Below, in pieces: positions 38,044-40,161 of a DNA stretch of 48,292 nucleotides (its first letter is position 1; each line of letters begins with the position of its first letter). Made by a program: the position numbers and the translations under genes. The notes below the pieces were generated by a model. The model made no database searches and was not told the origin of the DNA. It was given only the letters and a program-made list of their open reading frames with translations. This stretch comes from Rhizobium sp. Q54 (GTDB taxonomy: Bacteria; Pseudomonadota; Alphaproteobacteria; UBA828), in contig CAMDDO010000015.1 of NCBI GenBank assembly GCA_945892755.1, positions 1 to 48,292 on the forward strand. Direction: 5' to 3'.

Positions 38044-38121
38044 TTGCCGTCCCTCGCGACGAACGCTAGCTTGCTCCCCAATGACCGCCCACAAGGCGGC
38101 CCGATCAATAGGGGGGAACCA

Positions 38122-40161
38122 ATGCCGTATCCGCGCCTATTTTCCGAATGGAAGATCCGCAATACCACGATCAAGAACCGGGTGGTGTTCCCGCCAACCT
38201 GCCCGACCTGGGTGACCGATCCGTGGAACGGCGTGTTCTTCGACATGGCGACGGACTATTACGCCGAGCGCGCCAAGGGCGGCGTCGGCCTGATCATCAT
38301 CGGCGGCACGCACGTGCACCCCTCCTCGATCAGCGCGCCGCTGCTGATGCCGCAGCTCTTTGACGACCGCAATATCGAGCCACTCGCAAAAATCGCGAAG
38401 GCGGTCCATGCCGAGGGCTGCAAGCTTGGCATTCAGCTTTGGCATTCGGGCGTGCGCGGCTTTCCGACCTATAAGCAGGCGCCGGGCTTCGACCCCGATG
38501 CGACCTGGTACACGCTCTCGCCCTCGCAGGTGCCCTTGGGTGAGTTCCCCGGCGCCTCGACGCCGAAGGTGATGGACGAGGACGAAATCGAGGAGATTCT
38601 CGAGGCCTATGGCGCGGCCGGACGGCGCGCCATTCAAGCCGGGCTCGATGGTGTCGAACTCCACCTCAGCCACGGTTATCTGCCCTGGCAGTTCCTCTCG
38701 CCGCTCTACAACAAGCGTACCGACCGCTGGGGCGGCTCTTATGAAAACCGCCTGCGCTTTCCGCTCGAGGCGCTGAAGCGCATTCGCAAGGGCATCGGCG
38801 ACAAGCCGTGGCTCGGCTTCCGCATCAACTCGACCTCGTTCTGGCCTGGCGATCTGGAGATCGAAGACATCGAGAAGATCGTGCCCGATATCCAGAAGGC
38901 GGCCGATACCGACTATGTCAATGTCTCGGCCGGCGTGCATCACACCTTCATCCACACGCCGATGGAGTTTCAGGGCGGTTGGGAACGCGGCTATGCCCGC
39001 AAGATCCGCGCGGTCTCCAACAGACCGGTGCTGGCCGTGGGCCGCATCAATTCGCCGGACATCGCCGAGACCCTGCTTGAGGCCGGCGATGCCGATGCGA
39101 TCTGCCTGGCGCGCCAGCTCTTCACCGACCCCTATTGGGCGAAGAAAGCGCAAGAGGGCAAGGCCGACGATATTCGCTCCTGCGTCGCGGCGAACTATTG
39201 TTGGAAGAGCGTGAGCCGCGGTGCGCGCATTCAGTGTGTCTATAATCCGGTGATCGGGCGCGAGCGCGAATGGGGCGAAGGCTCGCTCATTCGGGTCAAG
39301 CAACCGAAGAAGGCCGTCGTGATCGGCGGCGGCCCGGCCGGGCTCGAATATGCCCGCGTCGCCGCCGCGCGCGGCCACAAGGTGGTGGTGCTCGAAAAGG
39401 AATCGGAGACCGGCGGCCATGTGCGCTTGCAATCCTTGTTGCCGAGCCGCGCCGAATTCGGTGAGATCGGCCGCTGGTTGACCGATCAGGCGCGCAAGAA
39501 CGGCGCCGAGATCAGGACCGACAGCCCGGTCGATGAAGACGGGCTTGATGCGCTTCTGGCCGACGAGAAACCGGATCATGTCGTGATCGCGACCGGCTCG
39601 AGCGTCTGCGTCGACGGCTTTCAGGGCTGGACCGCCGAGCCCATCAAGGGTTGGGAATCAGGCAATTGCATTGGCTGGGATGAAGTCGTGCTCGCGAAGC
39701 AGCGCGCCGCCGGCGTCTCCTTCCCCGGTCACGTCGTGGTGCTCGACGATATGTGCGATGTCGTGGCGCCCTTGACCGCGGTCGCCATGAAGGACGCGGG
39801 CGCCGCCTCGGTCACCTTGGTAACGCGCTGGCCGATGGTCGGCATGGAGACCATGCTCGACGTCTATTTCGACTGGATCATGCCGAAGCTCTACAAGGCC
39901 GGCGTGCGCCTATTGGTCGATCACTTCCCGCGCGCGGTCGAAGGCAACAAGATGACTATCTTCAACGTGCACCACGAAGAAGCGGTCACGACCATCCCTG
40001 CCGATTGGATCGTGATGGCGACGGGGCGGCGCTCGGAAAACGCGCTGGCCGATCTGGTCAAGGCCAAACGCATTTCGGTCGAGACCATCGGCGATGCCAT
40101 CGCGCCGCGTTACACTTACGAGGCGGTCTACGAAGGCCACCGCGCGGCGCGGAAGTTGTAG
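38122..40161 (+). CDS. Old yellow enzyme / TMADH-type flavoprotein oxidoreductase
   Basis: Start at the ATG at 38122, preceded by GGGGGG. The 679-residue product has an FMN TIM-barrel (about 1-340) with PYPRLFSEWKIRNTTIKNRVV and HLSHGYLPWQFLSPLYNKRTDRWGG-type segments. An Fe-S linker follows (about 353-380), then a FAD/NAD-binding half with VVIGGGPAGLEYARVAAARG. This is the layout of 2,4-dienoyl-CoA reductase and trimethylamine or dimethylamine dehydrogenase. The Fe-S linker, with spacing CVAANYC and a further Cys 12 residues on, has Ala where the second of four cysteine ligands is expected. The substrate is unknown. The gene follows the DUF455 gene by 78 nt. Confidence 0.8.
   Translation: MPYPRLFSEWKIRNTTIKNRVVFPPTCPTWVTDPWNGVFFDMATDYYAERAKGGVGLIIIGGTHVHPSSISAPLLMPQLFDDRNIEPLAKIAKAVHAEGCKLGIQLWHSGVRGFPTYKQAPGFDPDATWYTLSPSQVPLGEFPGASTPKVMDEDEIEEILEAYGAAGRRAIQAGLDGVELHLSHGYLPWQFLSPLYNKRTDRWGGSYENRLRFPLEALKRIRKGIGDKPWLGFRINSTSFWPGDLEIEDIEKIVPDIQKAADTDYVNVSAGVHHTFIHTPMEFQGGWERGYARKIRAVSNRPVLAVGRINSPDIAETLLEAGDADAICLARQLFTDPYWAKKAQEGKADDIRSCVAANYCWKSVSRGARIQCVYNPVIGREREWGEGSLIRVKQPKKAVVIGGGPAGLEYARVAAARGHKVVVLEKESETGGHVRLQSLLPSRAEFGEIGRWLTDQARKNGAEIRTDSPVDEDGLDALLADEKPDHVVIATGSSVCVDGFQGWTAEPIKGWESGNCIGWDEVVLAKQRAAGVSFPGHVVVLDDMCDVVAPLTAVAMKDAGAASVTLVTRWPMVGMETMLDVYFDWIMPKLYKAGVRLLVDHFPRAVEGNKMTIFNVHHEEAVTTIPADWIVMATGRRSENALADLVKAKRISVETIGDAIAPRYTYEAVYEGHRAARKL

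Follow-up and report, generated by a model that had tools for sequence, protein, structure and literature searches.

Does a flavoprotein of the TMADH/DCR type still work with an iron–sulfur cluster when one of the cysteines expected to bind it is missing? Descriptions of these enzymes presuppose a [4Fe–4S] cluster on four cysteines. The question is raised by a gene in a 48,292-nucleotide contig of Rhizobium sp. Q54, called the window here. A sequence-only reading had noticed an alanine at the second ligand position of the encoded protein and had considered a [3Fe–4S] cluster, another ligand or loss of the cluster as outcomes.

Architecture of the flavoprotein and its linker

The gene lies on the forward strand at positions 38122–40161. 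From the ATG at 38122, nucleotides 38122–40158 translate without interruption into 679 residues and the stop codon ends at 40161; the open frame extends 5′ to a TTG at 38044. An FMN-binding TIM barrel (residues 6–349, positions 38137–39168; Pfam Oxidored_FMN, PF00724, 241.7 bits), a linker and a Pyr_redox domain (Pyr_redox_2, PF07992, residues 397–647) are joined in one chain, as in TMADH/DCR-type enzymes, according to both Pfam and full-length structural matches. The first Rossmann fingerprint, GGGPAG...GGH (39310–39420; PF07992/PF00070 from residue 397), marks an FAD or ADP site. In the second Rossmann domain the NAD(P)H fingerprint of FadH is absent: by alignment, the motif VVLDDMCDVVAP (39733–39777) replaces GxGxxG, with Asp542 (39745–39747) at the start of the would-be fingerprint. 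An AlphaFold model made with 22 sequences (mean pLDDT 73) supports this overall fold as a prediction; we took no cluster geometry from it because linker residues 353–383 have a pLDDT under 50.

Two sites stand out in the barrel. Cys27 (38200–38202), invariant in orthologues, aligns with the flavin-linked cysteine of TMADH in phmmer and orthologue alignments; we take its column to be that of TMADH Cys30, which carries 6-S-cysteinyl-FMN, and presumably also that of a cysteine in the YqjM-class, non-covalent OYEs. His181, His184 and Tyr186, all invariant in a 22-row orthologue alignment (A1), form an HxxHGY motif in the OYE arrangement (38662–38679), which we take to be the active site from the biochemistry of OYE and YqjM.

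Between the barrel and the Pyr_redox domain, the linker reads SCVAANYCWKSVSRGARIQCVYNP. Translation and alignments give its core as C354-VA-A357-NY-C360-x11-C372 (39181–39237), encoded as Cys354 (TGC, 39181–39183), Val355 (GTC), Ala356 (GCG, 39187–39189), Ala357 (GCG, 39190–39192), Asn358, Tyr359, Cys360 (TGT, 39199–39201) and Cys372 (TGT, 39235–39237). The sequence-only reading had described CVAANYC with a further cysteine 12 residues on, which is where Cys372 stands relative to Cys360, and was also right that the second ligand position holds an alanine encoded by GCG; the codon that it placed at about 39187 is that of Ala356, and the ligand-position codon is the next one, at 39190–39192. Five phmmer entries cover four different proteins of solved structure (2-naphthoyl-CoA reductase (NCR), the 6-HPON amine oxidase HisD, trimethylamine dehydrogenase (TMADH) and histamine dehydrogenase), and all four have a cysteine opposite Ala357, in agreement with the earlier view of a TMADH/DCR-type Fe–S flavoprotein with one expected ligand missing. 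With Ala357 at ligand 2, the window protein lacks the four-cysteine [4Fe–4S] linker of that type.

NCR is the best-scoring solved relative in the phmmer search. In a structural comparison, which covered matches ranked high by Foldseek, it aligned over 595 residues (Z 38.9, rmsd 4.7), level in Z with TMADH entry 2tmd (Z 38.3, 608 residues, rmsd 3.6; VIA-align). TMADH (1djn/2tmd) and HADH (3k30/6de6) share the three-domain layout with the window protein over its whole length, lack GxGxxG in the second Rossmann domain as it does and have a similar C-terminal IGDA.APR stretch. They differ in having four cysteines (CIGCNVC...C) and a YxxH active site, whereas the window protein has three cysteines and the OYE-like HxxHGY; their Tyr/His amine active site, YGAHSY, is absent from the window protein, which has HLSHGY in its place. 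FadH and NCR have the same three domains, but NCR has four linker cysteines where the window protein has three. The best NCBIfam name, mycofactocin FadH/OYE 2 (TIGR03997), was rejected at 462.2 bits against a curated cut-off of 793; the two members above that cut-off among 149 genomes (L129 and L130) both have the four-cysteine linker CLSCNQEC.

Three-cysteine linkers in orthologues and in the wider family

The alanine is shared by every orthologue that we read, which answers the check proposed in the sequence-only reading. All 22 rows of alignment A1 have Ala357, and each of the 51 loci with an identity of at least 54% reads CVAAN[YFL]CW, a count that includes the window itself and several second copies from one genome; the next match lies at 37%. 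At E ≤ 1e-100, an orthologue was found in 17 of 60 related genomes, all belonging to one family and the window's among them; each of these 17 has the CVAAN[YFL]CW linker. Orthologues at 54–73% identity in MAGs titled Actinomycetota, Acidimicrobiia, Thermoleophilia and others have the same linker. One locus search had used six patterns including CVAANYCW, and a locus found by CVAANYCW alone could not have shown a cysteine; the remaining orthologue searches used the whole protein as query. Because that one seed pattern contained the motif, the whole protein was also run against 399 genomes of the class to which one actinobacterial carrier belongs. Ten matched at E ≤ 1e-120, and alanine was kept in 11 of 11 loci, of which four came from genomes already sampled, four were identical to earlier loci and three were new (L194, L195 and L198); L194 and L195 read CVAANLCW. 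The full pattern CVAAN[YFL]CW-x10-C occurs in 35 non-duplicate rows of the family set described below. A plasmid search returned 520 records, all below 60% identity, which were set aside. The window genome also encodes a four-cysteine relative (L002, CIGCNIC) and a second three-cysteine protein (L003, CVGAAWC).

For the wider family we assembled 166 rows (82 three-cysteine and 84 four-cysteine), or 148 once copies were removed. The single-domain OYEs L004 and L067, the partial L005, L001 (represented by the window protein) and the gene-context loci were left out, and the length filter dropped L046, which reads CVAANYCW. L185 has a longer linker that the regular expression missed and was scored as four-cysteine; L076, shifted at column 360 by the alignment, reads CIACNTC. 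The second ligand position holds Cys in 82 of the 148 non-duplicate rows, Ala in 55, Gly in 4, Thr in 3, Ser in 2, and Ile and Met in one each. Sixty-six members are thus without a cysteine at this position, and the first, third and fourth cysteines are present in all 148. Three-cysteine proteins are 28 of the 95 representatives, but this share is no estimate for the whole family because its rows were collected for their likeness to a three-cysteine protein.

These proteins do not form a single group. On a tree of the 95 representatives (28 three-cysteine, 67 four-cysteine), built with the linker columns omitted, nine changes of state are needed, at least six of them forced by branches with SH-aLRT ≥ 95. 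A 40-row tree, with rows picked by hand (15 of the 28 three-cysteine and 25 of the 67 four-cysteine), has six changes, three of them forced, and on it a single three-cysteine clade was rejected by the AU test (lnL 677 lower, p-AU 1.8e-5). Many losses of the cysteine, or fewer losses, perhaps a single early one, followed by several regains, would both fit the tree. The window clade is one group of 12 rows (SH-aLRT 100), whose placement as sister to the amine dehydrogenases on the 95-row tree is weak (SH-aLRT 90); on the 40-row tree other rows are nearest by path. The observation is real: a conserved three-cysteine form of a known flavoenzyme architecture is met in several branches. It also tells against the hint of a defect in the sequence-only reading, since the alanine is fixed in the clade, a residue other than cysteine recurs in other branches and the other three cysteines are always kept.

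Several further loci are of note. L168 and L183 have the amine-dehydrogenase signatures VPHC and YGAHSY or YGAHAY, yet carry Ser at ligand 2 (CTGSNVC); from these residues, an O-ligated or a three-cysteine cluster is possible. Two three-cysteine flavoprotein genes (L060 and L068) stand in tandem at L133:8398–12619 in genome G408, which is the source of L035 and is titled Acidimicrobiia; genes for an amidase, an alpha/beta-hydrolase and a solute-binding protein are nearby. A gene of the M24 peptidase/creatinase family lies near the three-cysteine genes L003, of the window genome, and L047 (regions L135 and L134), with ABC and HlyD export genes between L003 and the M24 gene. A literature search, with most subscription journals outside its scope, returned no title or abstract opening on a three-cysteine member; we do not claim absence in print.

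Cluster type and competing explanations

The reading that we prefer, with a probability of roughly 0.55, is that of a functional three-cysteine [3Fe–4S] enzyme of the TMADH-like kind, relaying one electron at a time from FMN to an ETF-like partner. FMN in the TIM barrel would carry out the substrate chemistry at the OYE-type active site (His181, His184 and Tyr186). The linker would hold a [3Fe–4S] cluster through Cys354, Cys360 and Cys372, and the fourth iron would be absent because Ala357 replaces the fourth ligand. The cluster would then act as a one-electron relay linking FMN to a partner outside the protein, for which ETF is the likeliest candidate given that the C-terminal domain has no NAD(P)H fingerprint. 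For the window protein, we infer the cluster type, the redox role and the partner. That the cluster works is suggested by the retention of three cysteines wherever the fourth is absent; such retention would not be expected from drift after loss of the cluster, although it could in part be structural. The alanine variant is probably a working three-cysteine design and not a broken enzyme.

Known clusters lend this reading a precedent. In ferredoxins, CXXA/GXXC(X)nCP marks a [3Fe–4S] cluster; proteins carrying a different residue there were obtained in the [3Fe–4S] form and were judged not to gain a fourth iron (PMC6237146). The last linker cysteine of the window protein is followed by VYNP, and not by Pro as in ferredoxins, so in applying the ferredoxin rule we infer across folds. 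The CYP-associated [3Fe–4S] ferredoxins have CxxAxxC and one distant cysteine, like the window linker, but their fold is unrelated, and the likeness is one of cluster logic, not of kinship. Within the flavoenzymes, NCR gave a weak [3Fe–4S] EPR signal, described as a breakdown product (PMC6502838), which indicates that a TMADH/NCR-type fold can hold such a cluster. Of the outcomes entertained in the sequence-only reading, we judge [3Fe–4S] the likeliest.

A [4Fe–4S] cluster on the same three cysteines, its fourth iron bound by water or a small ligand (perhaps with aconitase-like lability) or by a remote residue, is the less likely outcome but one to be taken seriously. Dehydratases and radical-SAM enzymes often have [4Fe–4S] clusters on three cysteines. 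The ferredoxin of P. furiosus (CXXDXXC), a [3Fe–4S] protein in air, can be [4Fe–4S] without air (PMC6237146). Among the 66 non-duplicate three-cysteine rows, ligand 2 is Ser or Thr in five, but the Ala, Gly, Ile and Met of the other 61 are unable to ligate. As for remote ligands, 14 Cys, His, Asp or Glu columns are invariant across the 12 representatives of the clade and rare, under 15%, among the 83 outside it; eleven of these, Cys27 included, are also constant in seven further loci, and the remaining three (His486, Cys516 and Glu654) vary in L194 or L195. Cys516 (39667–39669), which all 12 clade representatives and none of the 83 others have, is ruled out as a replacement ligand by the leucine in its place in orthologues L194 and L195. 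A scan of the 95 representatives for ligand-type columns filled in at least 80% of three-cysteine and under 50% of four-cysteine proteins gave only His181, a barrel position, and Asp542, in the second Rossmann domain, and beyond these no replacement ligand common to three-cysteine members. The [4Fe–4S] alternative keeps its weight because eleven clade-specific positions remain and the model of the linker is not usable.

Loss of the cluster, which would leave the linker as a remnant and send electrons directly from flavin to flavin or to a partner, seems improbable. One ligand is indeed missing, and single-domain OYEs function without a cluster, but all 66 non-duplicate three-cysteine members, spread over several separate branches, retain the other three cysteines. 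A private mutation, named in the sequence-only reading as what would refute it, or a sequencing or assembly error in this genome, whose assembly has 117 contigs of which the window is one, has a negligible probability and is refuted by the orthologues read, none of which shows a cysteine. The alanine is fixed in the clade, and the congener, at 87% identity, carries it too.

Electron exit and gene neighbourhoods

Under the preferred [3Fe–4S] reading, the second Rossmann domain bears on where electrons leave. Asp occupies the first Gly position of the NAD(P)H fingerprint in 61 of the 66 non-duplicate three-cysteine rows (the others being three Gly and two gaps) and in 34 of 82 four-cysteine rows; these counts were taken at residue 542 because the regular expression misjudged rows (for example, L182, L162, L184, L124, L185 and L089). 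Rows with Gly at 542 lie mainly outside the half of the tree that holds the window clade, and the association between three cysteines and a missing NAD(P)H fingerprint stems largely from one deep split. By independent pairs, scored with the imperfect motif expression, three-cysteine state against NAD(P)H-motif loss is not significant (median p 1). FadH uses NADPH (PMC6502838), and TMADH and histamine dehydrogenase bind ADP and their cluster hands electrons to ETF (PMC6502838; PMC10180351). Electron transfer between FMN and FAD, which the sequence-only reading expected to be affected, is unproven for this protein: its second Rossmann domain has no GxGxxG, and the solved ETF-coupled relatives bind ADP, not FAD.

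A second three-cysteine lineage, with the linker CVGANYC, comprises 15 loci. In the neighbourhood of one genome (L131:2555–8793), a CVGANYC flavoprotein gene stands beside genes for a DUF3483/Fer4/CCG protein and for EtfA and EtfB, a layout that matches dgcAB_fixAB (dgcAB-etfAB). In the published dgcAB_fixAB operon, growth on dimethylglycine requires dgcA (PMC12093977). Because this lineage has the dgcAB_fixAB layout, a three-cysteine linker is compatible with a working enzyme, very probably one coupled to ETF. The naming of L110 as DgcA rests on operon layout and the published description rather than on a curated model. DgcA resembles the window protein in its three-cysteine linker (CVGANYC versus CVAANYC) and its lack of GxGxxG; DgcA-type proteins differ in being only 30–34% identical to it, in forming a separate lineage of the tree and in the active-site motif, SAVHQH in L110. 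The iron–sulfur state of DgcA deserves re-examination.

By our reading, neither dgcB nor etfAB is among the ORFs neighbouring the flavoprotein gene in the window, which are a DUF455 gene and apparent housekeeping genes. We take the order in the window to be glnE, a peroxiredoxin gene, a DUF455 gene, the flavoprotein gene and then prfB on the other strand; a family search placed the DUF455 gene among the ORFs 5′ of the flavoprotein gene. The congener shares this arrangement of homologous ORFs, apart from the DUF455 gene, which the ORF caller did not pick there.

A different setting was found in another genus of the family, where, in all six carriers (G007, G010, G012, G014, G016 and G018, six species), the gene comes directly after boxB: the match to the orthologue starts no more than about 45 bases from the end of the match to BoxB. 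In G007 (L025:3942–14001) the flavoprotein gene is preceded, in this order, by genes for enoyl-CoA hydratase, BoxC and BoxB and followed by those for hydantoinase A and hydantoinase B; BoxC scores 902 bits (cut-off 712) and BoxB 827 bits (cut-off 499). L045 has the same operon-like run; L023 begins at boxB on a short contig, and L026 is without hydantoinase genes downstream. BoxB was found in 16 of 17 flavoprotein-carrying genomes of the window's family, the exception being the window genome, and in none of four non-carriers; in the other ten BoxB carriers of the family, the BoxB and flavoprotein genes are on different contigs. More broadly, 33 of the 190 genomes covered in the class have BoxB. 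It was also found in G022 and G028, which lack this flavoprotein, and in two of eight more distant flavoprotein carriers. A search of 20 genomes, nine with BoxB, found no BoxA at E ≤ 1e-20 and covered two genomes of this other genus, G007 and G010; the control for this search matched 3 of 14 control genomes at the same threshold, with 0 above the cut-off. This gene order makes it plausible that, in that other genus, the enzyme acts on a CoA-linked aromatic compound or has a redox function alongside BoxB. For the window gene, a CoA-linked aromatic or BoxB-related role is only a lead, and a partnership with BoxB is not supported because BoxB was not found in the window genome.

Taken more broadly, it is a tentative and rather doubtful proposition that three-cysteine [3Fe–4S] relays, that of DgcA included, arose repeatedly for an NAD(P)H-free exit to ETF as an adaptation to a higher-potential exit; that they make up an unrecognised class within the OYE/TMADH-type flavoenzymes; and that in part of the window's clade the enzyme has become linked to aerobic benzoyl-CoA (box) metabolism, where it might serve BoxB as a redox partner in the absence of BoxA. 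Should three-cysteine sites be present in a sizeable fraction of the relatives, cluster type and potential would have changed several times within one scaffold. Such enzymes would, if this is true, offer a natural series for how a [3Fe–4S] as opposed to a [4Fe–4S] relay sets the electron exit, to ETF or to NAD(P)H, and, since the physiological role of DgcA is known, the question is open to direct testing in laboratory Pseudomonas.
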